From Pseudomonas sp. HN11 (lineage in GTDB: Bacteria; Pseudomonadota; Gammaproteobacteria; Pseudomonadales; Pseudomonadaceae), in contig NZ_CP089985.1 of the NCBI RefSeq assembly GCF_021390155.1, positions 3,979,001 through 4,043,000 of the forward strand: a stretch of 64,000 nt of DNA. Reading direction: 5' to 3'. Both the position numbers and the translations under genes were made by a program. The notes beneath the pieces were generated by a model. The model searched no databases, was not told the origin of the DNA, and worked only from the letters and a program-made list of their open reading frames with translations. Below are positions 6,249 to 21,967 of the stretch, one piece after another (the stretch's first letter is position 1; each line of letters begins with the position of its first letter).

Positions 6249-6917
6249 TCAAGCAGCGCCCGCGGGGATGACTCGACCATGATGCAACACCACTTGCCGG
6301 TCCAGGCGTGCGGCAATTCGCGGGCTATGCGTCACCATCAACAGACTGGTAGGGCTGTCGCGAAGCAGGTCCAGCAACAATTGCAGCACTTCGTCGCTGG
6401 TGGCTTCGTCAAGGTTACCGGTGGGTTCGTCAGCCAACAGCAGACCCGGCCGCGACGCCAACGCGCGCCCCACCGCCACCCGTTGCTGCTGGCCACCGGA
6501 GAGTTGTTCCGGGTAGCGCTTGAGCATGTCCGCCAGGCCCAGGCGCTCCACCAACTGTGCCTGCCACTGCGGGTCATAACGCCCCGCGAGCCGCGCCTGG
6601 AACGCCAGGTTGTCCTCGACCCGCAGACTGCCGATCAGGTTGAATTGCTGAAACACCAGCCCGATTTCCGTGCGCCGCCAATGGGCCAGTTGTGCTTCGT
6701 TGAGTTGGTCCAGACGCTGCTTGCCCACCTGAATGCTGCCGCCATCCACCCGGTCGAGCCCGGCCACCAGGTGCAATAAGGTGCTCTTGCCGCTGCCCGA
6801 CTCGCCCATTAACGCCAGGCTGCTGCGCTCGCCCAAGTGCAGATCCACACCAGCCAATACCGTCAACGGCCCTTGGGGGGTGGCATAGTTCTTAATCACA
6901 TTTTGCACCTGCAACAT
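6249..6917 (-). CDS. LolD/MacB-family ABC transporter ATP-binding protein
   Basis: A 222-residue ATPase starting MLQVQNVIKNY. Walker A is GESGSGKST (about residue 38), the signature is LSGGQQQR, and Walker B is LLLADEPTGNLD followed by the D-loop and the switch His in VTHSP. The ADEPTGNLD form is typical of the LolD/FtsE/MacB group. The start at 6917 matches the family's usual N-terminus; longer in-frame starts add residues with no family match. It heads the operon with the FtsX-like permease and AttH-like lipoprotein. Confidence 0.92.
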   Translation of the reverse strand: MLQVQNVIKNYATPQGPLTVLAGVDLHLGERSSLALMGESGSGKSTLLHLVAGLDRVDGGSIQVGKQRLDQLNEAQLAHWRRTEIGLVFQQFNLIGSLRVEDNLAFQARLAGRYDPQWQAQLVERLGLADMLKRYPEQLSGGQQQRVAVGRALASRPGLLLADEPTGNLDEATSDEVLQLLLDLLRDSPTSLLMVTHSPRIAARLDRQVVLHHGRVIPAGAA

Positions 6918-7111: not shown

Positions 7112-7192
7112 AGTCTGTGACAGCCTCTTGTGTCACTGCCGGAATTCGCCAATACGTTGCGCCTAACTAATACAACACTGCCAACACGACCC

Positions 7193-7867
7193 ATGGTGAA
7201 TGAAGTGGTTGACCTTATCCTGATCAAACCGCGCTCGCGATGGGCCTTTATCAAGCGCCTGCGACGGCTCTGGCTGGGGCTCCTCGTGGCGGGCTTCCTG
7301 CTTGCAGCCAGCCTGCTTTGGCACGCGTCGCCGAAAGACCTGGGCGTCGGCAACCGCCTGCTGACTTCCCATGTGCTGCCCCTCTGGCGCGACGGTGACC
7401 TGATCGTGCTGGTGCGCCACGAAGAGCGCTGTGACCGTTCGTCCAACCCATGCCTGGGTCCCGTGGAAGGCCTGACGATCAACGGCAGCCAGCAGGCCGA
7501 AACACTGGGCAAGGCATTTAAAACATTGGGCATGGACGGCAGCGACGTGCTGGCGAGCCCTGCCATCCGCACTGCCCAGACGTTGCGGTTCATGTTCGGC
7601 AAAAACGAATTGACCTCCGGCCAGCAAGCGGTGTGCGGCCCGGCCATGGGTGAAGAATTGCTCAGCCACAAGACCTCAGGGCGTAACCTGGTGTTCGTCA
7701 CCCACAGCGGCTGCATCGCCGACTTCGAGGCCTCCCAGGGCTTTCCCCACGCCGCGTTTCCCAGGTATGGCAGTGCCCTGTTCGTGCAGGTATTGCCCAA
7801 CGGCAAATTCAAGACCCTGGGTATCATCAACAGCCCGGATTGGCCCGCCGCGTTAAAACAACTCTAG
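7193..7867 (+). CDS. Ais-like histidine phosphatase (LPS core heptose-phosphate phosphatase)
   Basis: A 224-residue protein with an N-terminal membrane anchor (about residues 18-40) followed by a histidine-phosphatase domain. The catalytic motif is LVRHEERCDRSSNPC, closely resembling the RHxxRCDRSxNPC signature of Ais/PmrG proteins, with the second catalytic His in VFVTHSGC. E. coli Ais dephosphorylates heptose(II) of the LPS core and is encoded beside the arn genes. Here too the next gene is arnT-like. A longer reading from GTG 7130 is possible, but ATG 7193 fits the repeat layout shared with the arnT leader. Expected to be anchored in the inner membrane facing the periplasm. Confidence 0.8.
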   Translation: MVNEVVDLILIKPRSRWAFIKRLRRLWLGLLVAGFLLAASLLWHASPKDLGVGNRLLTSHVLPLWRDGDLIVLVRHEERCDRSSNPCLGPVEGLTINGSQQAETLGKAFKTLGMDGSDVLASPAIRTAQTLRFMFGKNELTSGQQAVCGPAMGEELLSHKTSGRNLVFVTHSGCIADFEASQGFPHAAFPRYGSALFVQVLPNGKFKTLGIINSPDWPAALKQL

Positions 7868-7884
7868 AAACTTTCCTGTCCGTT

Positions 7885-7904
7885 TGTTCAGCAAAAAGAC
7901 AGCC
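7885..7904. promoter_or_regulatory. Copy B of the 20-bp repeat, upstream of the arnT leader
   Basis: TGTTCAGCAAAAAGACAGCC differs from the copy at 7092-7111 at one base. It lies 42 nt before the leader ORF that precedes arnT. A regulator acting on both the phosphatase and the glycosyltransferase is the simplest explanation. Confidence 0.5.
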
Positions 7905-7946
7905 CTGATCTGGCATGTTTAGTTACGCCTTTTAACTAAGGACGTC

Positions 7947-8048
7947 ATGACTATTTTCCGTAATTCAGTGAACGCTGTGACTGTATCTTCTATTACGCCA
8001 TTACTTAAAGTCCCCACAATTAAACGTCAGGGAGCGACGTTTGCATGA
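7947..8048 (+). CDS. 33-codon leader ORF translationally coupled to arnT
   Basis: An ATG-started ORF of 33 residues beginning [13 protein letters not shown] and ending GATFA, with a good Shine-Dalgarno (AAGGA, 5-6 nt upstream). Its stop overlaps the arnT start as ATGA (8045-8048), so ribosomes finishing the leader could restart on arnT. The arnT ribosome-binding region (GGGAG near 8030) lies within the leader's 3' end. The peptide is rich in Val/Thr/Ser and has no recognisable domain. I take it as a regulatory leader for coupling or attenuation rather than a functional enzyme. Confidence 0.6.
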
Positions 8049-9727
8049 CTCGATTAAAACCCCTGCCGCTATTACTGCTGGCCTTTGTCGCGTTTTATCT
8101 GCTGCCTCTGGGCCTGCACGGTTTATGGATCCCGGACGAAACCCGCTACGCCCAGATCAGCCAGGAGATGCTCCAGAGCGGCAACTGGGTGGCGCCACAT
8201 TTCATGGGTGTCCGCTATTTCGAGAAGCCTGCGGGCGGCTATTGGTTGATCGCCTTGGGCCAGGCGGTTTTTGGCCAGAACCTGTTCGGTGCGCGCATCG
8301 CCTCGGCACTGACCACTGGGTTGAGCGTACTGCTGGCCTACCTGATCGCCCGTCGCTTGTGGAATGACCCACGCAAAAGCTTCGCCTGCGCCCTGCTCTA
8401 CCTCAGCTTCGGCCTGGTGGCCGGGCAAGCGGGCTATTCCAACCTCGATCCGCAATTCACCCTGTGGGTCAACCTGAGCCTGGTGGCCCTGTGTTTTGCA
8501 CTCGACAGCGCGACACTGCGTGGCCGCCTATGGGCGTGGGCCATCGTGGGCCTGGCCTGCGCCATGGGTTTCCTGACCAAGGGCTTCCTGGCCTGGGTGC
8601 TGCCGGTACTGATTGCCGCGCCCTACATGCTCTGGCAACGACGTCTGGGAGAATTGCTGCGTTATGGCCCAGTGGCAATGGTCGTCGCGATACTGGTATG
8701 CCTACCGTGGATGCTTGCGATCCACCTTCAGGAACCGGACTTCTGGCGCTTTTTCTTCTGGAATGAACATATTCGCCGCTTCAGCGCCGACAACGCGCAA
8801 CACGTGCGGCCGTGGTGGTTCTTCCTGCCGATCATCGTTGTGTCTTGCCTGCCCTGGGCGGGGCTGCTGCCCGCCACGCTGCGCAAGACCTGGCAGGAAA
8901 AGCGCCAGCCGTCGATCATCTTTCTGGCGCTGTGGCTGTTGCTGCCACTGGGGTTCTTCAGCCTGAGCAATGGCAAGCTGCCGACCTACATCATGCCGTG
9001 CCTGCTGCCCTTGGCGTTGTTGATGGGGCATACGCTGGTCGACCTGATTAATCAGCATAAAGCCCGCACAATCTGCCTCAACGGCCTGCTCAACTTCGTG
9101 ATCGGCATGGTCGCCATGATCGGCCTGATCTACCTGCAAATCGCCCGGCCGCTGTACAGCAACAGCCACGCCGAGATGTTCAGCCTGTCCCTGGCGTTTA
9201 TCGTGTTGCTGGTGTGGATCCTCACCAACCTGCTGCAAGCCTTCCGCCCGCTGGCGCTGTGGGCGATGCCAACGCTGGGCATCGGCCTGCTGGTCATCCT
9301 GCTGCCGGCGAGCATGCCGGCGTGGATCGCGGATAACGAAATGCCCGATCAGTTTGTGCTCGACCACCTGGAAGAGTTGCAGCAGACCCAAGCGCTGCTG
9401 AGCAATGAACTGGGCAGCGCCAGCGCCCTGGCCTGGCGGCTGAAACGTCCGGAAGTGGCGCTGTATGACACCGAGGGCGAGTTGCGCTATGGCTTGCAGT
9501 ACGCGGGCTCGGCGCATCGCAAAGTGGAGTTGGAAGAGGTACAGGCTTGGCTCAAGGAGAAGCGCCAACTCGGCTCGGTCGGCGTACTGATGCGCGTCAA
9601 CAGCACCAGTGAAATGCGCGAGGCCGGGCAACTGCCGCCTGGGGGCAAACGCTACTACAAGGGGTCCCTTGAACTGATCATCTATGCGGCGAGCAATGCG
9701 GGAACCAACGCGACCCAACGTGAATAA
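8045..9727 (+). CDS. arnT: ArnT-like lipid A aminoarabinosyltransferase (GT-C, PMT family)
   Basis: A 560-residue polytopic membrane protein with about 11-12 hydrophobic helices. It starts near the catalytic loop [15 protein letters not shown], where the Asp-Glu pair fits the GT-C catalytic acid of ArnT/PMT enzymes, followed by [10 protein letters not shown] and [11 protein letters not shown] motifs seen in ArnT. ArnT transfers 4-amino-4-deoxy-L-arabinose from undecaprenyl phosphate to lipid A on the periplasmic side, giving polymyxin resistance. The usual arnBCAD and EF genes are absent here, so this is a stand-alone, probably second, copy and its donor sugar could differ. Family assignment is firm; exact substrate is not. 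It ends 7 nt from the convergent mcbF. Confidence 0.85.
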
Positions 9728-9734
9728 GTCCGCT

Positions 9735-10448
9735 TCATCCTTTCGACAGGCTGGCGGCGTGGATAAACGCTTCATCCAGGCTGTCGGCACCGTACGCCGC
9801 CATAAAGCTGCACGCGTCAGTGAAACGGTTGAATCGTCTTTGACTCAGCATATAAAAGTCATCGCAATGCGCGACGACTTCATCGACGTTGTGTGATGAA
9901 ACCAGCACCGCAACACCCTCTGCCGCTGCCCCCTCCAGACAACGCCAGATGTGATAACGAAACTCGGGATCCACACCCGCCGTGGGTTCATCCAGTATCA
10001 CCAGGTCCGCGTTGGCGCAGAGCAGGGACAACGTAAAAAACCAACGCTTTTCCCCATAGCTGCAAAGGGCGGATTTTTTGTTCCAGATCTCGCAGTAACG
10101 CTCTGCGATGCCGGGGCTCCATTTTTCGATTTTATCGAGTGCATGTTGTTGAGTGACCTGGGTGTCGGAGCAAAACAACATGGCCATTTTGAAGATGTCG
10201 AACATGCGAAATACCGGCGGCGTACTGATGACCTGCGACAGGTACAGCAGCTTGGAGAAGGAGTTGTTTATCTCACCACCCTCCGTTTTTTTCAGGCCGC
10301 ACAGCACATCAAAAAACGTGGTTTTGCCGGAGCCGTTTGGGCCGAGAAGGCCTGATATGGAGCCGGCAACGACTGTCAGAGAAGCCTTATGAAATACGAT
10401 ATGAGTTCCATATCTGACATCAAGAGAGTCTACGAGAAGCCTCGCCAT
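9735..10448 (-). CDS. mcbF: McbF-like ABC exporter ATP-binding protein (microcin export/immunity)
   Basis: A 237-residue ATPase with Walker A GPNGSGKTT (residues 36-44), Walker B LVILDEPTAG and the H-loop SSHN. The signature loop is unusual, reading SYGEKR in place of LSGGQ. E. coli McbF is 247 residues. ATG 10448 overlaps the mcbE stop (ATGA), so the two are translationally coupled. With McbE it would pump the modified peptide out of the cytoplasm and so also give the producer some protection. It is the last gene of the operon: only 7 nt separate it from the convergent arnT, leaving no room for mcbG. Confidence 0.87.
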   Translation of the reverse strand: MARLLVDSLDVRYGTHIVFHKASLTVVAGSISGLLGPNGSGKTTFFDVLCGLKKTEGGEINNSFSKLLYLSQVISTPPVFRMFDIFKMAMLFCSDTQVTQQHALDKIEKWSPGIAERYCEIWNKKSALCSYGEKRWFFTLSLLCANADLVILDEPTAGVDPEFRYHIWRCLEGAAAEGVAVLVSSHNVDEVVAHCDDFYMLSQRRFNRFTDACSFMAAYGADSLDEAFIHAASLSKG

Positions 10449-11191
10449 CAATAACGACTCCAAACAGGATTAATCAATAAAAAACGACACATCACTAAGA
10501 ACAAAAATAGAAGTGAAACGATAACAAACAAGAAAACCAACCCGCACTCCACCACGCCGCCCAACATAATCCTATTCGCCCACCACATCGGGTTAAAAAA
10601 ACTAACTGCAGCTAATGTGGGACTGACTGGACTACTACTGATGATCCCAAGAGCCAACATCGTAAGGGACAAAATGGAAAATAGGGTACTCGCATTTTGA
10701 AAGCCTAGCGGGATCAGTGTCAGCAACAGTGCGGGTATAGAGAAAACAAGAAAACAAACATAAAATCGCCCTACAATTACGAGATACTCCGCAATATCAA
10801 GCCCCCCTGTAAAAACGCGGGTGAGTATATAAAAAACGGAGCAGTACAATATTGAAACGACTGAATATGCAGAAAACTGCCCAAGCAAGAAGATCACCTT
10901 CGTACGATCCGTATAAACAAAAGACCGCAGAAAACCACTTTCCCTACGACCGACTATGTAAAATGCCAGCCCAAACAGCGCTACATTTGAAGACACGAAT
11001 GCGTAAAACCAGGAAGTGCTCGAAAGATAATCCACTGCACCACCACTCAGAGGCGTGCGCGCGTATGTAATCAAATAATAGGTAACCGCTGGCGACACTA
11101 CTGTCCAAAACAACGCAACCGGCTCTCTGAGTTGTTCCTTTATGAATAATACCGCTAGCAAGGCCGGCCTTGACACGAAATAGAAATCCAT
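10448..11191 (-). CDS. mcbE: McbE-like ABC-2 type permease
   Basis: A 247-residue membrane protein with six predicted helices and an ABC-2-type layout (short N-terminal amphipathic region LLAVLFIKEQLREP, helices, final helix near residues 215-240). E. coli McbE is 241 residues. It lies between the YcaO gene (9 nt upstream) and the ATPase gene (1-base stop/start overlap), matching the microcin B17 order. Base composition is clearly AT-richer than the flanking chromosomal genes, in line with horizontal acquisition. Confidence 0.85.
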   Translation of the reverse strand: MDFYFVSRPALLAVLFIKEQLREPVALFWTVVSPAVTYYLITYARTPLSGGAVDYLSSTSWFYAFVSSNVALFGLAFYIVGRRESGFLRSFVYTDRTKVIFLLGQFSAYSVVSILYCSVFYILTRVFTGGLDIAEYLVIVGRFYVCFLVFSIPALLLTLIPLGFQNASTLFSILSLTMLALGIISSSPVSPTLAAVSFFNPMWWANRIMLGGVVECGLVFLFVIVSLLFLFLVMCRFLLINPVWSRY

Positions 11192-11199
11192 TATTCACC

Positions 11200-12393
11200 T
11201 CATGGAAACGGGACCATAACGCCTAGCCGAGCGCTAAGCACCGACGACTCAAAATCTTTGGAATACTTATTGATCAGATTAAAATGCTTCGAGTTATTCA
11301 TATGAAGAAACAGGTCAGGAGAGACAAATTTAACAAAGACTCCCGCCACCCCATCAACCTCTTCAAACTTTGAGTAAAAATAGCCAGAGACATCTAACTT
11401 TTTCAGCACTGACAAAAATTCAGGCAATGTAAAATCCTGTAGAGACCTTACCCCTCCACACTCTTGCACATTGACAATATCTTGATAGGTCTCATAAGCG
11501 TTGCAACTTAAAAAATAACGTATATATGAGTCCTCAAGCTTCGCCTCATCAGAGTCGGTTGCCTTGAACAAATTCATGAAGCGAAATGTCTGCCACAGTT
11601 CAAGCAAAGACTTTTCCAAAGCAATAGTCATATTCGAAGAATAGGCCATACCAGCGCAATAATTCACATGGCGATCAACTTTTCTCTGCCCATAAACAAC
11701 CAATACGCAACACCCTGGAAACCTCGTATCAGATATATCTAAAAAAGTCACATCCCCCGACATGGACAGAGCATCATATAAGTGCCTTACTTCTCGACGC
11801 ATCAATAACTCCCTCACCTGTTTAGAAGGAATCTGCGAACGACACATTTTCGTTAACCAGAATCTAATTAGAAATTGGCGCTCAAGGTATTCTTTTATCG
11901 CCCCTAGAAAGGCTATATCTGGGCCCCAGTGGAAACTGCACCCACAGGTGTCACGCAAAGGGTAGAGCCAGTTATCATCGCCGACGCTATGGGACGAGAG
12001 CGAAATACAGGCAGTTGGAATAAAACACGCAGAGAAGTCAGAGGCCCTGAGTACTTGACTTAAAGCGAACCTGTGCTCACCAACCTCTGCAAGAGAGGTC
12101 TTCTTATTCGCAGTCTGAGTAAATGCTTCCGCAAAACCACGAGCTTCACTTTCTGATAAATATTTACTAAGACAACCGCGTTCTTTTGCCACAACTTCCC
12201 TGTAAAAATGACGGCGTTCGAAATACTCACCTGTAGCAGTTTTTATCGAATGCGAACCTCCTCCGACACCAGATCCATTAACTGAAAGGAAATCCGATAT
12301 TTCTACCGAGCAGGGCAGACCGAGTACGCCCGCAGGCTGAAAGAGGATAACTCCGGGCAAATCCGGATTATGCATACCATTAATAAGCTTCAT
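11200..12393 (-). CDS. mcbD: YcaO-domain cyclodehydratase, McbD-like (azoline formation)
   Basis: A 397-residue YcaO protein; E. coli McbD is 396. The ATP-binding signatures of YcaO enzymes are present: SHSIKTATGEYFER (residues 47-60, with E56, E59, R60), then GAIKEYLERQFLIRFW (about 164-179, E168, E171, R172), then ALEKSLLELWQ. The C-terminus ends VPFP, short and Pro-rich as in azoline-forming YcaO proteins. It would use ATP to activate backbone amides so that Cys (and Ser/Thr) side chains cyclise to azolines, with the peptide delivered by McbB. It overlaps the mcbC end by 14 nt. Confidence 0.92.
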   Translation of the reverse strand: MKLINGMHNPDLPGVILFQPAGVLGLPCSVEISDFLSVNGSGVGGGSHSIKTATGEYFERRHFYREVVAKERGCLSKYLSESEARGFAEAFTQTANKKTSLAEVGEHRFALSQVLRASDFSACFIPTACISLSSHSVGDDNWLYPLRDTCGCSFHWGPDIAFLGAIKEYLERQFLIRFWLTKMCRSQIPSKQVRELLMRREVRHLYDALSMSGDVTFLDISDTRFPGCCVLVVYGQRKVDRHVNYCAGMAYSSNMTIALEKSLLELWQTFRFMNLFKATDSDEAKLEDSYIRYFLSCNAYETYQDIVNVQECGGVRSLQDFTLPEFLSVLKKLDVSGYFYSKFEEVDGVAGVFVKFVSPDLFLHMNNSKHFNLINKYSKDFESSVLSARLGVMVPFP

Positions 12394-13186
12394 ACTGCTT
12401 ACCTATAAAATGAACGCACATTGGTAAAAACAGAGCAGGGTTAATTCCCAAAACCTTACACAGCATCAGATCCGTATAAGCAGACCATAGCCGACATGAC
12501 AGACCCAGCGACTTGGCTTGCAGCTCGACAAGCATGTAAATTGAACCAATCTCCATGAGGGCCATTCGATACGCACGATATCGATATTTGAAGAGATTTT
12601 TAGGCATATAGACTGCGTAGACTATTGCCAAGCCGGGCGATCCAATTTTATTAGAAGAGAACAGCAGTGCCGCTTTGAGCTCCTCCACCTCAATTTTAAT
12701 CTGCATCACCTCAAATTTTCGGGACTTCGGAAGCAAATGGAGTACTTTCCCTGGACAAGGCCAACTAGGGTTATCATCAATCATCGAGCAGAGAAAAACT
12801 TCAACCGGGTACAGTGCACCACCACTCGGATATCCTCTTTTGCAGGAGTCCATATTCCTCGATAGTAATGGACATATCAAATTTTCCACATCTGAAAACT
12901 CTAATAAGAGAGGTGAAAAATACTCACACGACTCATTCCTGTACAATGTTTTTTCTCTGTCCTTCTGGGATATATTTATCTCCAGCGTCAGATCCATATC
13001 GGGATAAAGGGCCAATTCATTCCCCGTCAGTTTCTCAAGACTTTTCTCATCCAATCGATGGAGAATTGTGCGGCCTTTAGTAGCCCCATGAAATGTAAAA
13101 TTACCTTTATTATGAAATTCAAGCACCTCATCGTAAACTGATGACTCTACAAATCTAAGATAGTAATCATGCGGAATATTTTTCAT
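12380..13186 (-). CDS. mcbC: McbC-like FMN-dependent azoline dehydrogenase (SagB family)
   Basis: A 268-residue protein; E. coli McbC is 272. The nitroreductase-fold SagB/McbC signature appears as RGYPSGGALYPVEV (residues 117-130). A Lys-Tyr pair at 200-201 (FKYRYR) falls at the position of the Lys-Tyr motif essential in azoline dehydrogenases. It would oxidise thiazolines/oxazolines to thiazoles/oxazoles using FMN within the McbBCD complex. Its start overlaps the mcbB stop (ATGA at 13183-13186), so the two are coupled. Confidence 0.92.
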   Translation of the reverse strand: MKNIPHDYYLRFVESSVYDEVLEFHNKGNFTFHGATKGRTILHRLDEKSLEKLTGNELALYPDMDLTLEINISQKDREKTLYRNESCEYFSPLLLEFSDVENLICPLLSRNMDSCKRGYPSGGALYPVEVFLCSMIDDNPSWPCPGKVLHLLPKSRKFEVMQIKIEVEELKAALLFSSNKIGSPGLAIVYAVYMPKNLFKYRYRAYRMALMEIGSIYMLVELQAKSLGLSCRLWSAYTDLMLCKVLGINPALFLPMCVHFIGKQYEAY

Positions 13187-14040
13187 TCACTCGCCCTCAA
13201 ACAATCACACATATACCAGTGCGAATTAGACTCTTCTGAAACTTGCCCATCCATCAGTTGAAGATATGAGCTATGCAGAATGTCATCCTGATATTTATAC
13301 ATATCACTATGCTCCGTGAAAATTTTTACCTTTTTGATAACTGCACCAACAATGGTCATTTCCTGATACAGACTGAGCACCTTAGCTGGCACACCGACAT
13401 GTTTATTTTTACAAAACGCCAAAATACTGGCCCAATTATTCTTTGCAGTCCTAACCGACTGATTATGAATAAGCCTGTCAACGCTACAAAAATGGCACGG
13501 ATTACCTATTTCTGCGATATAAGGCTGACCGACGCAAAAAACATTGCCCATTTGCCAACAGACGCTAATGGCGCTTTTAGGGGATGCACGTGCGAGATCA
13601 AAATACAATTTTTTAACATACTCATAATCATACACATAGCACAGCAGCACGATGAAGCATTTAAGATCTCGGACCAACTCAACCAACTCACTTGAAAACG
13701 ACTTAAACTCTAAACAAGTAGACACTTCACTCCTGAATAGGCTTTCAACATCAACCCGACCTGCCCAATCATGAACAACTATCGTTTTCTCAAAATATAT
13801 GTCCTCAACAGACTTTAGAGGAATTACTCTTTCCAAGAATGCAAAAGCATCACTTTGATTCAATCCATTTTCCGCTAACACCTCATCCAACTCGGCTTTC
13901 GTCATCGACTTCGATAGCTTCAGTTCCCGAAGAGCGTTTAACAACGACTGAGAACGAATTTTCGAAATTCCGAGATCGGAAATTAGAAGACTCTCCGTTT
14001 CAAAGTTCAAAATCTCATAATTGGGTATGATTATATTCAT
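13183..14040 (-). CDS. mcbB: McbB-like zinc-binding, leader-recognising subunit of the synthetase
   Basis: A 285-residue protein; E. coli McbB is 295. Paired cysteines at 182/185 (CHFC, after EIGNP) and 278/280 (CDC) would form the structural zinc site of E1-like TOMM scaffold proteins. The N-terminal region (about 1-80) is helical and strand-rich, as in a peptide-clasp (RRE-like) domain that binds the precursor leader. Position as the first gene after the precursor matches microcin B17. The Shine-Dalgarno AGGAG sits 8 nt before ATG 14040, just after the intercistronic hairpin. Overall identity to McbB appears low; the call rests on cysteines, size and context. Confidence 0.87.
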   Translation of the reverse strand: MNIIIPNYEILNFETESLLISDLGISKIRSQSLLNALRELKLSKSMTKAELDEVLAENGLNQSDAFAFLERVIPLKSVEDIYFEKTIVVHDWAGRVDVESLFRSEVSTCLEFKSFSSELVELVRDLKCFIVLLCYVYDYEYVKKLYFDLARASPKSAISVCWQMGNVFCVGQPYIAEIGNPCHFCSVDRLIHNQSVRTAKNNWASILAFCKNKHVGVPAKVLSLYQEMTIVGAVIKKVKIFTEHSDMYKYQDDILHSSYLQLMDGQVSEESNSHWYMCDCLRASE

Positions 14041-14056
14041 TGCACGATCTCCTACA

Positions 14057-14084
14057 GAGGTTTTCTGAAAATCCAGAAAACCTC
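14057..14084 (-). promoter_or_regulatory. Intercistronic hairpin between mcbA and mcbB
   Basis: A perfect 11-bp inverted repeat (GAGGTTTTCTG / CAGAAAACCTC) with a 6-nt loop, between the precursor stop and the mcbB ribosome-binding site. No T run follows in the direction of transcription. It is better read as an attenuator or mRNA-stabilising structure that keeps precursor mRNA in excess over enzyme mRNA than as a full terminator. Confidence 0.75.
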
Positions 14085-14106
14085 ATTAGGTGAGTGAATA
14101 GTGAAT

Positions 14107-14307
14107 TTACTCAACCGCCGATGGAGGCTCCATTATCGAATTATGGCAGCCCCCGCTTCCCCCATTACAACCGCCGCCGCCACCACATCCTCCGCTGCCA
14201 CCGCACCCACCTTGACTCCCCGACGCTCCGGCATTACCTGCGTAAGGGTTGAATCCTTCCTCACTTTCGAAACTAAAAACGAACTCTCCAAACTCTTCGT
14301 CGTTCAT
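14107..14307 (-). CDS. mcbA: McbA-like microcin B precursor peptide
   Basis: A 66-residue precursor; E. coli McbA is 69. ATG 14307 has a strong Shine-Dalgarno (GGAGG, 6 nt spacing). The acidic, Phe-rich leader (MNDEEFGEFVFSF, about residues 1-26) carries EFG and a hydrophobic residue four after the Phe (F6, V10), parallel to F8 and L12 in the McbA leader. The core from about residue 27 is Gly-rich with Cys at 35, 41, 47 and 54 and Ser at 29, 31, 38, 51 and 57, then a non-glycine tail ending PPSAVE. Cys spacing is 6, 6 and 7. No Ser-Cys or Cys-Ser neighbours exist, unlike McbA. It heads the operon and is encoded immediately before McbB. Confidence 0.93.
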   Translation of the reverse strand: MNDEEFGEFVFSFESEEGFNPYAGNAGASGSQGGCGGSGGCGGGGGCNGGSGGCHNSIMEPPSAVE

Positions 14308-14343: not shown

Positions 14344-14363
14344 GTTGCTCACCATCGAGCAAC
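14344..14363. promoter_or_regulatory. Inverted repeat in front of mcbA (possible operator)
   Basis: GTTGCTC and GAGCAAC flank a 6-nt spacer, a perfect 7-bp inverted repeat 37-56 nt upstream of the precursor start. A TATACA at 14335-14330 (minus strand) could be a -10 element close to it, though the 5' leader would then be short. Placement suits an operator or 5' mRNA hairpin. No regulator gene lies in the operon. Confidence 0.45.
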
Positions 14364-14986
14364 GAAACCAATCTAGGCCGGCGGGAGAATATCGCAACAA
14401 AAATAAAAATTTTACGTAGGAAATATAACTACTATCTTTCGGACATTTCACTCACAAACTTAGGAAATTCAACAATTACCTAGAAGACCAGAAATACCGC
14501 CAACCCCGCATCAACAAATCAATCCATGTAAATTTAATAAGTTAGGAATTATCGAACCTTTAGAAAAAACCAATGCGAATGCAGGCATTTTTTGCAAAAC
14601 AAAACTTATTCCTACAGACTCGCAGAGAAAATCCGACAAGTGGCACTGCTTAGTTCTGAGGATGTGCGAACAGAGGAGGCCAAACGCGCATTGTGCAATA
14701 TCAATTGTGGTCGTGCCTTGGCGTGTGCGGGCAACGACCACCGGATAATCACTACCCAGCCGGATAATGGCGAACGGTGGTCTCACAAGCGTGGGGATGA
14801 AAGCGTGGTGTTTGTACCAGAGCGTCAATAGACAGAGATTTCACTTCTTCAACATGTCGATCTTCTCCCGTATTTCCTCATCAATTAGCCCGCGAAGCCT
14901 TTCAAACAAGGTGGGTCAGGCATGTCGAGCCCCTCGAGAGGCGACGTGGCGGGTCAGTGTGATGGAGGTGCGCCCACGCCTGCAAA
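14364..14986. other. AT-rich intergenic region upstream of the microcin operon
   Basis: About 620 nt without a gene I can support. Two overlapping frames of roughly 80-105 codons exist (one per strand, 14511-14831), but neither has a ribosome-binding site or a family match. The left part (14364-14500) is strongly AT-rich and should contain the mcbA promoter; on the minus strand a TATATT occurs near 14425 without a good -35. The right part returns to chromosomal composition and runs into the decayed ABC gene, so the boundary of acquired DNA probably lies near 14.6-14.9 kb. Confidence 0.5.
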
Positions 14987-15520
14987 TCAGCTCTGCGGAT
15001 TGATCCCACTCTTGCGCGGCACATCGGCCTCGTCCGTGCCCGCTCGCAAACCTGCCACCTGCGCCTGCACCGCCCGCCCCTCCGCTCGATTGCGGATAAA
15101 TCCGACACGGGTAAATCGCTCCAGAAACGGTACCGGCAAGGCCTTGTCCGATGTCACCGCCGGTTGCTCAGCCACATCCCCGAACAAGGTATACGCGGCA
15201 CTTGGTAGGTGTCGCGTATTGAGGTCGCTGGTCAGCCGTCCTTCCTGCAACGCGATCGCGCGGTTGGTGACCCGTTGCAGGTCGGACAGGCGCTGGGAGA
15301 TGTAGAGGATGGCCACGCCCCGTGCGCGCTGGCTGTCGATCAGGCCGAGCAGGCGTTCGGCGTCGTTTTCGGACAGGGCGGCGGTGGGTTCGTCGAGGAT
15401 CACCAGCCGGGGTTGCTGGGTGAAGGCACGAACCAGTACCAGCAGTTGGCGATCCGCCTGGCCGAGGCGTTCGACCGGGTGTTGCAGCGGCAACTCCAGG
15501 CCCAGCCCGGCGACGGAGGG
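14987..15520 (-). pseudogene. Remnant of a sugar ABC transporter ATP-binding protein (RbsA/MglA type)
   Basis: The open frame begins without a Walker A region and contains a Walker B block (LVILDEPTAALSENDAERLL), the H-loop region ILYISQRLSDLQ and ALQEGRL, as in the first nucleotide-binding domain of sugar ABC ATPases. It then jumps to PFLERFTRVGFIRNRAEG, which resembles a segment before the signature of the second domain. A normal member has about 500 residues; this has about 175. N-terminal loss plus an internal deletion make it a pseudogene. No start codon is convincing. Confidence 0.75.
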
Positions 15521-15757: not shown

Positions 15758-18700
15758 TCAGATCCTGCGTCGCCGGTTGAGCTGGGGAATGGCCGCCTGA
15801 GGAACCTCCACCCGCTCCACCTGCGTCGCCGTCTGCGCCGCCAATTGCGCCAACGTCGGATGACTGAACAGCGTCCGCGCATCCACCTCCAGCCCCGCCT
15901 TGCGCATCCGTGCCACCAGGTTCACCGCCAGCAACGAATGCCCACCCAACTCAAAGAAATGGTCATGCCGCCCGACCCGTTCCAGCTTCAAGACTTCGGC
16001 CCAAATCCCGGCCATCAATGTTTCCACTTTCCCCATCGGAGCTTCATACGCGCGGCTCACCACCGATTCCAACCCCGGCTCCGGTAAGGCCTTGCGGTCA
16101 AGTTTGCCGGCAGGATTGAGCGGTAACTCATCCAACTGCACAAAAGCCGCCGGCACCATGTACTCCGGCAATTGCTCCAGCACATGCGCACGCAACGCAT
16201 CCAGGCTGGGAGCGCCTGTACGCACAGTGAAATAAGCGACCAAACGCTCATCCCGAATCAACACCGCCACTTCGCGCAACGCCGGATGCGCCAACAGCCG
16301 TGATGCGATTTCCCCCAGTTCCAAACGCACGCCGCGCAGTTTGACCTGGAAGTCATTGCGTCCCTGGAATTCCAGGTTTCCGTCCGGCAGGTAACGTACC
16401 AGATCACCCGTGCGGTACAGCCGATCTCCTTCAACAAACGGGCTCTGGATAAAACGCTCGGCAGTCATCTGCTCCAGCCCCAGGTAACCACGGGCTACAC
16501 CGACCCCACCGATATGCAACTGCCCACTGACGCCCATCGGCACAGGCGCATCGTGCTCGTCCAATACATACAGGCGCGTGTTGTTGATCGCCCGGCCAAT
16601 CGGCAGTTGCAGCGCAGGCACCGGCGCGCCGGGTTCCAGGGTCCAGGCGCTGCTGTCCACCGTGGCTTCGGTGGGGCCGTAGACGTTGTGCAAACGCACC
16701 TTAGGCAAACGCGCCTGCACGCCACGAGCCAAAGCTTCGGTGAGTTCACCGCCACCACACAACACATCGGTGAGGCTGGTGCACAGGGCGGACGCTTCCA
16801 GTTCAAGAAATTGCTGGAGCATGGCCGGCACGAACTTGATCACGGTGATCTGCTGTTCGCGAATCACCTGCGCCAGGTAGGCAGGCTCACGATGACCATC
16901 GGGCCGCGCCAGCACCAGGCGCATGCCATTGGTGAGCGGCCAGAACAACTCCCACACCGAGCCGTCGAAGCTGAACGGCGCCCGTTGCAACAGCGCGCCG
17001 CCCTCGGCGTTGGGACACAGTTGGGAGCCCCAGTGCATCAGATTACCGAGGCCGCGGTGTTCGATCATCACGCCTTTGGGCGTGCCGGTGGAGCCCGAGG
17101 TGTACATCACGTAGGCCAGGTTGGCGATGCTCAATCCCGGCACCAACGGGTTGCCGATAGGTGCCTGGCTCCAGGCGCAGTGGTCGAAGTCGATCACCGG
17201 GATCGACACTTCGCCCGGCAAGTCGCGGGTGGCCGCGTGCACCAGCAACGCCACAGGTTGGCTGTCGTGGAGCATGTAGGCCAGACGCTCGCGCGGGTAG
17301 CCAGGGTCCAGCGGCACATAGGCGCCGCCGGCCTTGAGAATAGCCAACAAGCCCACCACCAGATCCAGCCCACGCTCGACGCACAGCGCCACACGGGCGT
17401 CCGGGTGCACACCGCGTTCGCGCAGGTAAAACGCGAGTTGGTTGGCGCGTTCGTTAAGCTCGCGGTAGGTCAGTTGTCGCTCACCGGCCTGCACCGCCAC
17501 GGCGTGGGGGATATGCCGTGCGTGGGCTTCGAACAGCGCCTGTACGGTGAGGGTTTCGGGGTAATCGACCTCAGTCGCGTTGAAGTCCACCAACAGCGTT
17601 TTCAACTCGCTGGCGGGCAGTACCTGCACCTCACGCATTAGGGCTTGCGGTGCCTGCTCCAGCACATCCGCCAGATTGACCAGTACGGTTTCAAGGTAAT
17701 CCAACAGACGCTCGGCACCGACCTTGCGCGGGGCTTTGGCCTTGATCTGAAAGCCGCTGGCGATATCGTCCACGGTCAGCATCAGCGGGTAACTGAGGAT
17801 GTCTTCACTGCTGAGCAAGGCGATGCCAGGCACCAGCGTCAGATCGCGTTCGGCATCGGTGTGGCGGTAGTTGAGCAGGCTGTTGAACAACGGCGACGCA
17901 CTGCTGCAACGTTGGGCCAATGCGAGGGAGGCCTGTTCATGGGCGAGCAAGGCACTGAGCCGAGCGTGAGTGTCGCGCAAGGCATTGGCCGCAGTCTGCC
18001 CGGCCAGACGTACCCGCAACGGCAGTGTGTTGATGAACATGCCCAGGGCCCGGTCCGCGCCCTCGCCCGCCTGCAAGCGGCCGAGCAGCACGGTACCGAA
18101 GACCACGTCATCGCGGCCCGCGACACGGCTGAGCACTTGGGCCCAGGCCAGGTGGAACAGGCTGGCGGCGCTCACGCCCAACCCACGGGCCTGGGCACGC
18201 AGGCGTTGATTGAGACTGTCGCTCAGCACCCGTTCGGCTTCATCAGTGTGCGACCGGTCCGCCTGGCGTTCCTGTAGACCGAAGGCCTGCGTCGGCTCGT
18301 CGATATCCCCCAGTTGCTCACGAAAAAAAGCCTCATGCGCGGCCTGCCGGGCCGGCGAACGGGCTTGCGTCACCATATTGCGATAGGGCACCGGCACCGG
18401 CAGTTGTGCCTGTTGACCGAGCAAGTGGGCACGGATTTCCTGCATCAGAATCGTGGTCGACGTGGCATCGTTCACCAGGTGATGAAAGCGCAGCCGCGCA
18501 ACCCAACGCTCGTGCTGCGGCTCCTGCGCATAATCCAGGGCCATCAGCGGTGCCTGACGCAAATCCAGCGGTTGATCGCCCTCGCGTAGCGGCTCAACGC
18601 GCAATTGCGCCTCGCGCCACACCACCTGCATCGGTTGCTCCAGGGCATCCCAGACCAGACTTGTACGCAGGATATCGTGGCGGTTGATCACCTGTTGCAG

Positions 18701-21700
18701 GGCTTGGGCAAACGCGTCCAACTGCTCGCGGCGGGCAAAGCTGAACAGCGCCTGTTGCTGGTAAGGATCGCGCTCATCGGTAATGTGGTGGTAGAGCAAG
18801 CCTTCCTGCAACGGCGCCAGTGGGTAGACGTCCTGCACATTGGCCGCACCGCCGGGAATGGTTGCGACGATGCGCGCCAGGCTCGCTGGGTCCAGCTCAG
18901 CCAGGTCAGGTGCGTCCACCTCCGCGTATTCACTCGCCGCCGCCAAGGCCGCCAGGGTCGGTTGACCGAACAGCACCTGCACATCGGCGCGCAACCCGAC
19001 TTGGCGCATGCGTTGCACCAGTTGCACGGCCAACAGCGAATGCCCGCCGAGTTCAAAGAAGTTGTCGTGACGCCCTATCTGCTGCACCTGCAACAGCTCG
19101 GCCCAGAGCTGCGCCAACAGGGATTCCACGCCGATATGCGGGGCTTCATACAAGCGGGTGACAAAGGCGTCCTGGGTCGGCGCCGGCAACGCCTTGCGAT
19201 CGAGCTTGCCGTTGGTGGTCAGGGGCAACGCGTCCAGTTGCGTGTAGGCGGCGGGCAGCATGTAGTTGGGCAGCGAGGCTTGCAGATGGGTGCGCAGGGC
19301 TTCGATCTGCACCACTTCCCGGGAAACGAACCAGGCGAGCAACTGCCCATCGCGTGACTGCACCACCGCTTCCTGTACGTGCTGATGGGTGGCCAGGGCG
19401 GATTCGATTTCGCCCAGTTCGATGCGCACGCCACGGATTTTCACCTGGTCGTCATTACGTCCCAGGTATTCAAGGTTACCCTCCGGCAGCCAGCGTGCGA
19501 GGTCGCCGGTGCGGTACATGCGGCCTTCGATAAACGGGTCGTCGAGGAAGCGTTCGGCGCTGAGCTCGGGGCGATTGAGGTACCCCCGCGCGACGCCTTT
19601 GCCGCCGACGTACAACTCCCCCGCCACACCGATGGGCACAGGGCGTTGCTGTTCATCGAGCAAATACACCGTGGCATTGGCGATAGGTGCGCCGATATGC
19701 AACGGCTGCCCCACTTCCATGCGCCCGGAGGTGGCAACCACCGTGGCTTCGGTGGGCCCGTAGTTGTTGATCACCGCAAAGGACTGCGACTGGGTGAAAG
19801 AACGCAGGCGGTCGCCGCCGATCAGCAGGGTGCGCAGGGTCGGATGTTGCAGGCTCTGGCTGAACGCGTACTCGGCCACGGGCGTTGGCAGGAAGCACAC
19901 GTCCAGTGGCTGCGCGCGCCACCAACTCAGCAACGCGTCGATATCTTCAGCGCCTTCATGAGCGGGCGGCAGGTGCAGCGTGGCACCTACACAGAGCGCA
20001 GGCCAGACCTCCCAGGCCATCGCGTCAAACCCAAAACCGGCGACGCTGGCAGTATGGCTGCCGGCGTGCAGGTCGAAGGCCTGGCAATGCCAGTCCACCA
20101 GGTTCGAGACCGTGTGATGCTCGACCATCACCCCCTTGGGCAAGCCGGTGGAGCCGGAGGTGTAGATCACATAGGCAAGGTTGGACGGGCTGACTGGCAC
20201 TCGGGGGTTGGTGCCCAGGTGGAAGGTCGGGCGGTCGAGTTGGATCACCGGCACGTTCAGCGCAGGCAGGCGCTGCAGCAGGTCGTGCTGGGTCAGCACC
20301 ACCACCGGATCGCTGTCTTGCAACAGATAGTTCAGACGTTCGCCAGGATGAGCAGGGTCCAGCGGTACGTAGCAGGCGCCGGACTTCAGAATCGCCAGCA
20401 ACCCCACCAGCGTATCCAGACCGCGCCGCGCTAGGATCACCACGCGGTCATCCGGCTGCACGCCGCGCTCCAACAGTTGATGGGCCAGGGCGTTGGCCTG
20501 CTGGTTGAGTTGGGCATAGCTCAGTTGATCGCCCTGGTACACCGCCGCCACCGCGTCCGGCGTACGTGCGGCCTGGGCTTCAATGCGCGCATGCAGGGTT
20601 TGCGGTTGCCCGCTGGGCTGGGCGGTGGCATTCCAGTGTTGCAGTTGGATGTGTTCGGCAGGCGTTACCAAGGAAAAGTCACGGACCTTCAGCGCGGTGT
20701 CTTCCAGCCCCTGCTCCAGCAACCAGGTAAAGCGCTGCGCCAGGGCGAGCACCTCGTCGTGCTGGAAGTACGCTTCGTTGTAGACGCAATGCAGGCACGC
20801 GGTGTCCTGATAGCGGTTGCTGCGCAAGTGGATCGCCAGCGGCAACGGCTCGTGGTGATTGGACACCTTGACCGCACGGGCCTCGGTGGTGCCGTAGCGC
20901 AGTTCATGGTCGTCCTGTTCGAAGGACACCGACAGGTCGAACAACTGAGCGCGATCAGTGCGGCGCAAGCCCAGTTCACGGTTCATCTCGCTCAAAGGAA
21001 AGCGTTGGTGGCGGAAATCCTGCTTGAGCTGGTCGCGAACCCCACGTACCACTTCGCAGAACGGCAACTGCTCATCGAACTGCAGACGCACGGCGCTGAC
21101 CTGGGTGAACAGCCCGACGGTGGCGCGAAAATGCGCATTGGAGCGGTTGAGAATCGGCAGCCCCACCACCCATTCCTGGCGCTGGGCCGTGCGGGTGAAA
21201 TACACATACAGGGCCGCCAACAGCACGTGAAACGCCGAGGCCTGGTAACGGCTGGCCACTTGTTCCATGCGGTTGAGCAGCGTCACCGGAAACCCTTGGA
21301 CCAGGGTATTGCTGGACGCCTTGGCGTTATACCGCGGCGTCAGTAAGGGTTCTGGAAGCACCCGGTATTTGTCCAGCCAATACCCGCGGTCGCGGGGGTA
21401 GCGGGCCGAAGCCTGGTAGCGTTCATCTGCGTCGATAAAGTCGATGTAGGACGGCGCAAGCGCCTCCGGTTGCCGTCCTTGGTCCAGGTCTGTGTATAGC
21501 CGGGCGAGCGATTGCAGCATCTGGCCGAAGCCCCAGCCGTCGAGGATCAGGTGGTGGGCCTGGGTGCCGAGGCGGTAGTGATCATCGTCAAGCTTGACCA
21601 GGAAGAAACGAAACAGCGGTGCGCCCTGCATCCTGTACGGCAGGGCCATCTGCGCCTGCATCAGCGCCTGGCTGGCAGCCTGTGGATCAGGCTCGTCGGA

Positions 21701-21967
21701 AAAATCATGCAGGGCCAGGTCGACGGACAACGTGGTGGCGAAGGTCTGCCGAGGTAAACCGTTGGCGTCGGTGTGCAGTTGCGTGCGCAAGGCATCGTGC
21801 TTGATCACCAGCAACTCGATGGCGCGCTGCATCAGGTCTTGCGCAATGGGGCCGGAAAAGTCCACGTAGCCGCCGATGTTGTACAGCGGCGAATCGCCCA
21901 CGCGCAGTTGGTCGAGCCAGATGTCCTGTTGGGCGGCAGTAAGGGGGAAGCTGGAGGAATGCTTCAT
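15758..21967 (-). CDS. Two-module lipopeptide NRPS (Cstart-A-T-C-A-T), ViscA/MassA/WlpA-like
   Basis: 2069 residues. Domain order: condensation with HHLILDGWG (about 138), adenylation 1 (YTSGSTGLPKG, NNYGPTE, YRTGDLARW), carrier 1 (ELGGHSLL), condensation 2 with HHLVNDATS and a PLAPLQEGLLYHH start, adenylation 2 (YTSGSTGTPKG, VYGPTE), carrier 2 (ELGGHSLL); no thioesterase. The N-terminal condensation domain suits a lipo-initiation role. My reading of the ten-residue code gives DAWFLGNVVK for A1, the classic Leu code, and DGWKLGVVDK for A2, where Lys at position 278 suggests an acidic substrate, probably Glu. Leu-Glu with no thioesterase fits the first synthetase of viscosin-group lipopeptides, whose remaining synthetases are often encoded elsewhere. 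The ATG has AAGGA upstream. Confidence 0.9.
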   Translation of the reverse strand: MKHSSSFPLTAAQQDIWLDQLRVGDSPLYNIGGYVDFSGPIAQDLMQRAIELLVIKHDALRTQLHTDANGLPRQTFATTLSVDLALHDFSDEPDPQAASQALMQAQMALPYRMQGAPLFRFFLVKLDDDHYRLGTQAHHLILDGWGFGQMLQSLARLYTDLDQGRQPEALAPSYIDFIDADERYQASARYPRDRGYWLDKYRVLPEPLLTPRYNAKASSNTLVQGFPVTLLNRMEQVASRYQASAFHVLLAALYVYFTRTAQRQEWVVGLPILNRSNAHFRATVGLFTQVSAVRLQFDEQLPFCEVVRGVRDQLKQDFRHQRFPLSEMNRELGLRRTDRAQLFDLSVSFEQDDHELRYGTTEARAVKVSNHHEPLPLAIHLRSNRYQDTACLHCVYNEAYFQHDEVLALAQRFTWLLEQGLEDTALKVRDFSLVTPAEHIQLQHWNATAQPSGQPQTLHARIEAQAARTPDAVAAVYQGDQLSYAQLNQQANALAHQLLERGVQPDDRVVILARRGLDTLVGLLAILKSGACYVPLDPAHPGERLNYLLQDSDPVVVLTQHDLLQRLPALNVPVIQLDRPTFHLGTNPRVPVSPSNLAYVIYTSGSTGLPKGVMVEHHTVSNLVDWHCQAFDLHAGSHTASVAGFGFDAMAWEVWPALCVGATLHLPPAHEGAEDIDALLSWWRAQPLDVCFLPTPVAEYAFSQSLQHPTLRTLLIGGDRLRSFTQSQSFAVINNYGPTEATVVATSGRMEVGQPLHIGAPIANATVYLLDEQQRPVPIGVAGELYVGGKGVARGYLNRPELSAERFLDDPFIEGRMYRTGDLARWLPEGNLEYLGRNDDQVKIRGVRIELGEIESALATHQHVQEAVVQSRDGQLLAWFVSREVVQIEALRTHLQASLPNYMLPAAYTQLDALPLTTNGKLDRKALPAPTQDAFVTRLYEAPHIGVESLLAQLWAELLQVQQIGRHDNFFELGGHSLLAVQLVQRMRQVGLRADVQVLFGQPTLAALAAASEYAEVDAPDLAELDPASLARIVATIPGGAANVQDVYPLAPLQEGLLYHHITDERDPYQQQALFSFARREQLDAFAQALQQVINRHDILRTSLVWDALEQPMQVVWREAQLRVEPLREGDQPLDLRQAPLMALDYAQEPQHERWVARLRFHHLVNDATSTTILMQEIRAHLLGQQAQLPVPVPYRNMVTQARSPARQAAHEAFFREQLGDIDEPTQAFGLQERQADRSHTDEAERVLSDSLNQRLRAQARGLGVSAASLFHLAWAQVLSRVAGRDDVVFGTVLLGRLQAGEGADRALGMFINTLPLRVRLAGQTAANALRDTHARLSALLAHEQASLALAQRCSSASPLFNSLLNYRHTDAERDLTLVPGIALLSSEDILSYPLMLTVDDIASGFQIKAKAPRKVGAERLLDYLETVLVNLADVLEQAPQALMREVQVLPASELKTLLVDFNATEVDYPETLTVQALFEAHARHIPHAVAVQAGERQLTYRELNERANQLAFYLRERGVHPDARVALCVERGLDLVVGLLAILKAGGAYVPLDPGYPRERLAYMLHDSQPVALLVHAATRDLPGEVSIPVIDFDHCAWSQAPIGNPLVPGLSIANLAYVMYTSGSTGTPKGVMIEHRGLGNLMHWGSQLCPNAEGGALLQRAPFSFDGSVWELFWPLTNGMRLVLARPDGHREPAYLAQVIREQQITVIKFVPAMLQQFLELEASALCTSLTDVLCGGGELTEALARGVQARLPKVRLHNVYGPTEATVDSSAWTLEPGAPVPALQLPIGRAINNTRLYVLDEHDAPVPMGVSGQLHIGGVGVARGYLGLEQMTAERFIQSPFVEGDRLYRTGDLVRYLPDGNLEFQGRNDFQVKLRGVRLELGEIASRLLAHPALREVAVLIRDERLVAYFTVRTGAPSLDALRAHVLEQLPEYMVPAAFVQLDELPLNPAGKLDRKALPEPGLESVVSRAYEAPMGKVETLMAGIWAEVLKLERVGRHDHFFELGGHSLLAVNLVARMRKAGLEVDARTLFSHPTLAQLAAQTATQVERVEVPQAAIPQLNRRRRI

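Follow-up and report, generated by a model that had tools for sequence, protein, structure and literature searches.

The mcb operon and its gene products

The DNA described here is a stretch of 64,000 nucleotides from the chromosome of Pseudomonas sp. HN11 (contig NZ_CP089985.1, positions 3,979,001 to 4,043,000), referred to below as the window. On its minus strand, from position 14307 to 9735, lie six genes in the order mcbA-B-C-D-E-F, every frame of which is open. A preliminary description of the window had placed six mcb genes at this site without stating the strand, and all six were located there. The operon as observed is real and far beyond chance, since McbB matches the family TIGR04424 with an E-value of 7.1e-74 (249 bits; cut-off 65), the synthetase proteins match the solved E. 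coli McbBCD complex and both the genes mcbB to mcbF and the core of the precursor are under purifying selection. The encoded proteins of 66, 285, 268, 397, 247 and 237 or 242 amino acids are near in length to their E. coli counterparts, as had been claimed; 69, 295, 272, 396, 241 and 243 amino acids are given for McbA to McbF in PMC10912980. The genes from mcbB to mcbF had been said to be bound into one unit by overlaps, which was found for mcbB/mcbC, mcbC/mcbD and mcbE/mcbF, whereas mcbD and mcbE are 8 bases apart.

The predicted azole synthetase consists of a scaffold and leader-binding protein (mcbB, 13183..14040), a SagB-type azoline dehydrogenase (mcbC, 12380..13186) and a YcaO cyclodehydratase (mcbD, 11200..12393). 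In a search of solved structures, the E. coli McbBCD complex (6gos) was the top match of McbB, McbC and McbD (E 4e-11, 2.5e-39 and 1.9e-56, respectively), and McbB and McbD had no further match at E up to 0.001. Identity to the E. coli proteins amounts to 20% for McbB, 32% for McbC and 33% for McbD. McbD matches the YcaO family (E 4.9e-16, 59.4 bits; cut-off 25.7) and McbC lies barely above the cut-off of the Pfam nitroreductase family (23.8 versus 23.5 bits). Alignment with the E. coli proteins and those of seven relatives (nine sequences for McbC) revealed invariant cysteines at positions 182, 185, 278 and 280 of McbB and an invariant Lys-Tyr pair in McbC, exactly at the previously noted residues 200-201; we take the four cysteines to bind zinc and the Lys-Tyr pair to be active-site residues. 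The C-terminal PFP of McbD is invariant in alignments of 20 and of 9 sequences. The gene-level features that mark a McbBCD-type linear azole peptide cluster are present, namely a McbB-family scaffold, a YcaO protein with a C-terminal PxP and a SagB-type dehydrogenase with Lys-Tyr. The PxP motif is reported to be catalytic in azoline-forming YcaO enzymes (PMC7136475).

The exporter is encoded by mcbE (10448..11191), a membrane protein predicted to be all-helical with a mean predicted local distance difference test score of 87.5, and by mcbF (9735..10448), an ATP-binding cassette (ABC) ATPase of 237 amino acids from its ATG; an upstream TTG at 10463 is a possible alternative start and yields 242. 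McbF matches many ABC ATPase families (ABC_tran, E 9.6e-15), and no Pfam or NCBIfam family was matched by McbE or McbA at E up to 0.1. Elsewhere in the genome there are two SbmA/BacA matches and three matches to the TldD/PmbA family, two of which are about 2 kb apart; the third frame, at C1:5783350 (L093), stands apart from the usual pair. Leader removal has been linked to TldD/TldE and to export (PMC5810440). A conserved region precedes mcbA on the minus strand (14360..14470, alignment of 11 loci), in which TTGCGA (14397-14392) and CTAGAT (14376-14371) form a possible candidate promoter. Most loci of this alignment have a repeated TTCCTA-like box in the region, with one altered copy in the window.

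The precursor peptide and its relation to microcin B17

McbD matches were obtained in 24 of 298 Pseudomonas genomes (best 85%, G017) and at 37 loci of named genomes (best 80%, Pseudomonas simiae); the comparisons below cover 47 loci after removal of duplicates, window included. A precursor is present in 45 of them and was not found in L040 and L051. The mcbA frame of the window (14307-14107, 66 amino acids) is composed of a leader (residues 1-26, 14230..14307), a Gly/Cys-rich core ending in the tripeptide Asn-Ser-Ile (residues 27-58, 14134..14229) and an acidic C-terminal tail, MEPPSAVE (residues 59-66 with the stop codon, 14107..14133). The leader motif FG-x-x-[LIVF] occurs in 40 of the 45 precursors, including that of the window, a count that is not independent because eight starts were reset by hand to lie before the FG or LG of this same motif. 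The core pattern GGCGGSGGCGGGGGC is shared by 41 precursors, the exceptions being L072, L077, L085 and L087. The Gly/Cys repeats of L072, L085 and L087 are shortened or rearranged, as if by repeat slippage.

Changes in the core are nearly all synonymous. Between the window and six near relatives, 7-17 synonymous and 0-1 nonsynonymous differences were counted in the core; nonsynonymous differences amount to 2-9 in the leader and 3-5 in the tail. For McbB to McbF, the ratio of nonsynonymous to synonymous substitution rates (dN/dS) against the same relatives is 0.07-0.18, with dS values of up to 2.9, of which those above 1.5 are rough.

In microcin B17, bis-azoles arise from pairs of neighbouring residues. 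A Ser-Cys pair as in E. coli McbA is found in none of the 45 cores and only twice in tails (L062 and L067). At the position after the third Cys, 17 precursors have Asn, 5 have Lys and 23 have Ser (21 plus L072 and L085, in whose shortened repeats it was assigned by eye). The window peptide has no adjacent Cys, Ser or Thr from the start of the core to the end of the tail, so bis-azoles of the microcin B17 type cannot form in it. The C-terminus differs as well. After the last Gly-Gly or Gly-Cys, all 45 precursors carry a tripeptide of a polar, a small and a hydrophobic residue, a pattern defined after the sequences had been viewed and hence an observation rather than a test. Four precursors end there, and 41 continue with a tail of 5-15 residues, the net charge of which is negative in 39. 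In the window, Asn-Ser-Ile is followed by eight residues, whereas microcin B17 terminates with Ser-His-Ile. The tail might be cut off or tolerated, or the target of the peptide might differ. Among the matches listed in a search for literature on azole or microcin B17 follower peptides, nothing concerned such a tail.

A further difference concerns mcbG, the seventh gene of the E. coli operon, which encodes a pentapeptide-repeat protein that protects gyrase. It was not found in the window or in the flanks of the 47 Pseudomonas loci by tblastn with McbG of E. coli as query (E up to 1) or by a pentapeptide pattern, although a distant gene would be missed since the flanks were of unequal length and some short (5,420 bases in total for L083). 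The E. coli locus, which served as a control, was positive by both methods. A weak match of 36 residues in L085 (E 0.14) was not counted, and the only Pentapeptide match in the window's own genome is a 114-amino-acid frame unlinked to the operon. Of the preliminary claim of a complete microcin B17-type operon, the A to F set therefore stands, as an open, selected gene set that encodes a Gly/Cys-rich precursor, an azole synthetase of the McbBCD type and an ABC exporter of two genes; the attribute 'complete microcin B17-type' does not, as mcbG in the operon, adjacent Ser/Cys pairs in the core and a C-terminus at Ser-His-Ile are strict features of microcin B17 that the locus lacks. Gene order, protein types, near lengths and a Gly-rich precursor are shared with E. 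coli mcbABCDEFG (6gos), from which the window differs by its chromosomal location, the mcbG gene that was not found, the absence of adjacent pairs and the acidic tail past the tripeptide.

A counterpart is found within the genus. Operons of the mcbABCDEF type without mcbG are known from strains of the P. fluorescens group (PMC8719888), and for a described group of pseudomonad clusters the missing pentapeptide-repeat gene has been taken to argue for a target other than gyrase (PMC7136475); in genus, A to F set and lack of mcbG the window agrees with these clusters, and no difference was seen from what the consulted parts of the two papers report. In PMC4603692, microcin B17 clusters from E. coli and from three species of Pseudomonas add up to 30. 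The preliminary description had mentioned microcin B-like clusters from P. syringae. These are indeed reported and resemble the window in synthetase and exporter types; unlike it, they are reported with mcbG and a gyrase-targeting product (PMC8719888, PMC7136475), and the mcbG-less class has likewise been described already in pseudomonads. Judged from its sequence, the window operon is an open, selected member of this published mcbG-less Pseudomonas class rather than microcin B17 itself, and as one more member of that class it is not new in itself.

The window peptide may be a functional microcin B17, a gyrase poison against which McbEF alone provides sufficient immunity. The shared synthetase and exporter types and the gyrase-targeting products of P. 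syringae clusters (PMC7136475) speak for this, as do the Cys-Ser at the third Cys in 23 of 45 precursors, which makes one bis-azole possible, the tripeptide comparable to Ser-His-Ile and the reported activity of a microcin B17 fragment lacking the first bis-heterocycle (PMC3622597). The idea nevertheless stays tentative: the window peptide has no adjacent pair at all, mcbG was found at none of the 47 loci, and a tail extends past the tripeptide, without which cleavage-complex activity is abolished in E. coli (PMC3622597). Given the missing mcbG and the lack of adjacent Ser/Cys pairs in the core, gyrase poisoning is not to be assumed, and gyrase is a possible target.

Klebsazolicin and phazolicin, whose clusters have an exporter of another type instead of McbEF, act on the ribosome, and a target such as this is a serious, if less than even, prospect for the window peptide too. 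It would agree with the count of pentapeptide-repeat genes (0 of 47 loci) and with the non-gyrase target argued for mcb-like clusters lacking that gene (PMC7136475); the Gly-rich core pattern, on the other hand, resembles that of microcin B17, and nothing points directly to another target.

Genomes with mcbE and mcbF without the synthetase genes

McbE matches were found in 41 of 296 Pseudomonas genomes, 23 of which also have a McbD match; 18 have none, although McbD is the longer query. Conversely, none of the 24 McbD genomes is without mcbE. The match is partial in G244, and the mcbE of the 24th genome (G297), which is outside the McbE match list, sits in L037. By tblastn with eleven query sets, mcbF was detected in all 18 genomes (referred to as EF-only) and matches to B, C or D in none of 16. 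Debris was seen in the other two: L126 has remains of B and C, and L138 has a B remnant as well as a precursor. The latter, a precursor-like frame at about position 6790 beside mcbEF, ends in NAISSTDD; only a piece of B, and nothing of C or D, was detected there. As judged by DNA similarity, both flanks resemble those of full operons in 15 of the 18, at varying distances, one flank does in L131 and L139 and none in L138. In nine genomes (L126, L127, L132-L135, L138, L140 and L142) a stretch that extends to no more than 70 bases from the mcbA start, or into mcbA, is located at most 900 bases ahead of mcbE.

The preliminary description had named inactivating mutations in close relatives beforehand as grounds to reject its reading. 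Such mutations exist: in G174, the genome closest to the window by McbE and McbF, B and C are reduced to pieces and D is absent. The window copy is open. In addition, mcbD is interrupted by a stop or split into two frames beside open mcbE and mcbF in L050 (G052) and L046/L086 (G037, Pseudomonas agarici).

A quick tree of McbE and McbF with long branches (65 rows, the full rows partly from a second search) has 19 rows with the label EF-only, which are those of the 18 genomes plus L051 (G138), where D is present only as debris; L040, L050, L081 and L086, in which part of the synthetase is damaged or missing, are counted as full. The EF-only label requires 15 changes of state, at least 11 of them forced by starred branches. 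With labels shuffled 500 times, the mean was 16.7 changes and 95 shuffles needed no more than the observed number; the scatter of the label is thus close to that expected by chance. The changes alone have no direction; the debris and the flanks of the EF-only loci point to losses rather than gains.

The EF-only genomes might be decaying remnants in which E and F are merely not yet lost. Damage to E or F in 3 of the 18 fits this idea, as do remnants of mcbA or of B, C or D beside L051, L126, L138 and L142. Decay is nonetheless quite improbable, as E and F are open across the whole match in the remaining 15 genomes, whose B, C and D are absent or fragmentary. Also opposed to it are dN/dS values of 0.11-0.21 among EF-only genomes (six pairs from four genomes, at low dS), the mcbA upstream sequence or mcbA itself before mcbE in nine, and the absence of any genome with D and without E. 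Retention under selection without producer genes would be explained equally well if McbEF had been taken over for another substrate, which is unlikely, as no neighbour gene common to all loci was seen among the full loci, in which the largest similarity cluster of flanking open reading frames covers 13 of 47.

Instead, the 18 of 296 genomes with E and without D, the 0 of 24 with D and without E and the flanks like those of full operons suggest that export serves as immunity and is retained by non-producers. In E. coli, full immunity needs McbE, McbF and McbG together and is otherwise partial (PMC6795089). Immunity genes without production genes are also reported for two microcin B17-resistant E. 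coli strains, which have mcbG and an mcbF orthologue (PMC10926693). Those genes are flanked by transposase and were read as transferred, unlike the mcbEF of Pseudomonas with its full-operon flanks in 15 of 18. In 5,426 E. coli genomes, mcbEF-like DNA was found in 135 and mcbBCD-like DNA, counted separately, in 110. Among the matches listed in a literature search, no title or abstract dealt with immunity by mcbEF alone in Pseudomonas.

Proposed function and surroundings of the operon

We consider it likely, with a probability of about 0.75, that the operon directs the synthesis and export of a microcin B-type linear azole peptide, which probably inhibits related bacteria and to which McbEF confers immunity. 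McbB would hold the leader of the precursor while McbD, with ATP, converts Cys and Ser residues of the core to azolines, which McbC would oxidise to thiazoles and oxazoles. The leader would be trimmed by the chromosomal TldD/TldE protease. McbEF would export the peptide and provide the only dedicated immunity seen, mcbG not having been found. Azole chemistry, leader removal, killing and immunity by McbEF are all deduced steps. Several points weigh against this proposal. Product, activity and immunity are predictions from the genes; McbC falls under the NCBIfam SagB cut-off (62.9 versus 78.4 bits) and McbD under that of the SagD family; and the damaged members of the EF-only set are E in L126 and L136 and F in L133, the start of which is missing. 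Moreover L135, one of the four genomes in the EF-only dN/dS comparison, falls into a group with a full-operon genome in the tree, and its loss may therefore be recent.

The operon makes it testable whether mcbG-less mcb-like peptides hit a target other than gyrase. The window peptide, devoid of a bis-azole site, and the 23 of 45 precursors able to form one constitute a natural comparison set, and the EF-only genomes are candidate immune non-producers. A bolder and rather doubtful extension would place the Pseudomonas peptides without mcbG in an azole-antibiotic family of their own, with a near-invariant core, a non-gyrase target and an acidic tail whose removal would activate the peptide. This family would drive a genus-wide arms race with at least 11 state changes, taken as losses, and with immune non-producers that have mcbEF at the native site, several behind the old mcbA upstream region. 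The core and tail counts and the mcbEF-only genomes were not met in the consulted parts of the cited literature.

The preliminary description had taken the AT-rich composition as a sign of acquisition. The composition stands, with 44% G+C in the operon against 62% in the flanks, but recent gain does not follow from it: operon G+C is below flank G+C in every one of the 44 loci whose flanks could be used (the 45th, L083, has only 11 flank bases and was left out), and the downstream flank of the window is common to 11 other full loci, which leaves recent horizontal gain unsupported for its subgroup. This flank (7130-9727, plus strand) holds two lipopolysaccharide genes, one arnT-like (NF009784, E 4.9e-226) and one pmrG-like. 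Carriage by phages or plasmids was also considered. McbD had no match in 50,697 phage records and matched 137 plasmid records under eight other genus names, none of them Pseudomonas. Outside the genus, McbB matched only the own genome among 293 genomes drawn from the order, a thin sample at the genus McbD rate of 24/298.

Upstream of the operon, a 168-amino-acid frame on the minus strand (14987-15493) matches positions 138-226 of the 513 in a xylose ATPase model, and this restricted coverage makes it probably the remnant of a sugar-type ABC transporter ATPase gene. Further upstream on the same strand (15758-21967) is a nonribosomal peptide synthetase gene of 2069 amino acids with two adenylation domains, and sequence of a related type precedes the operon in several relatives.

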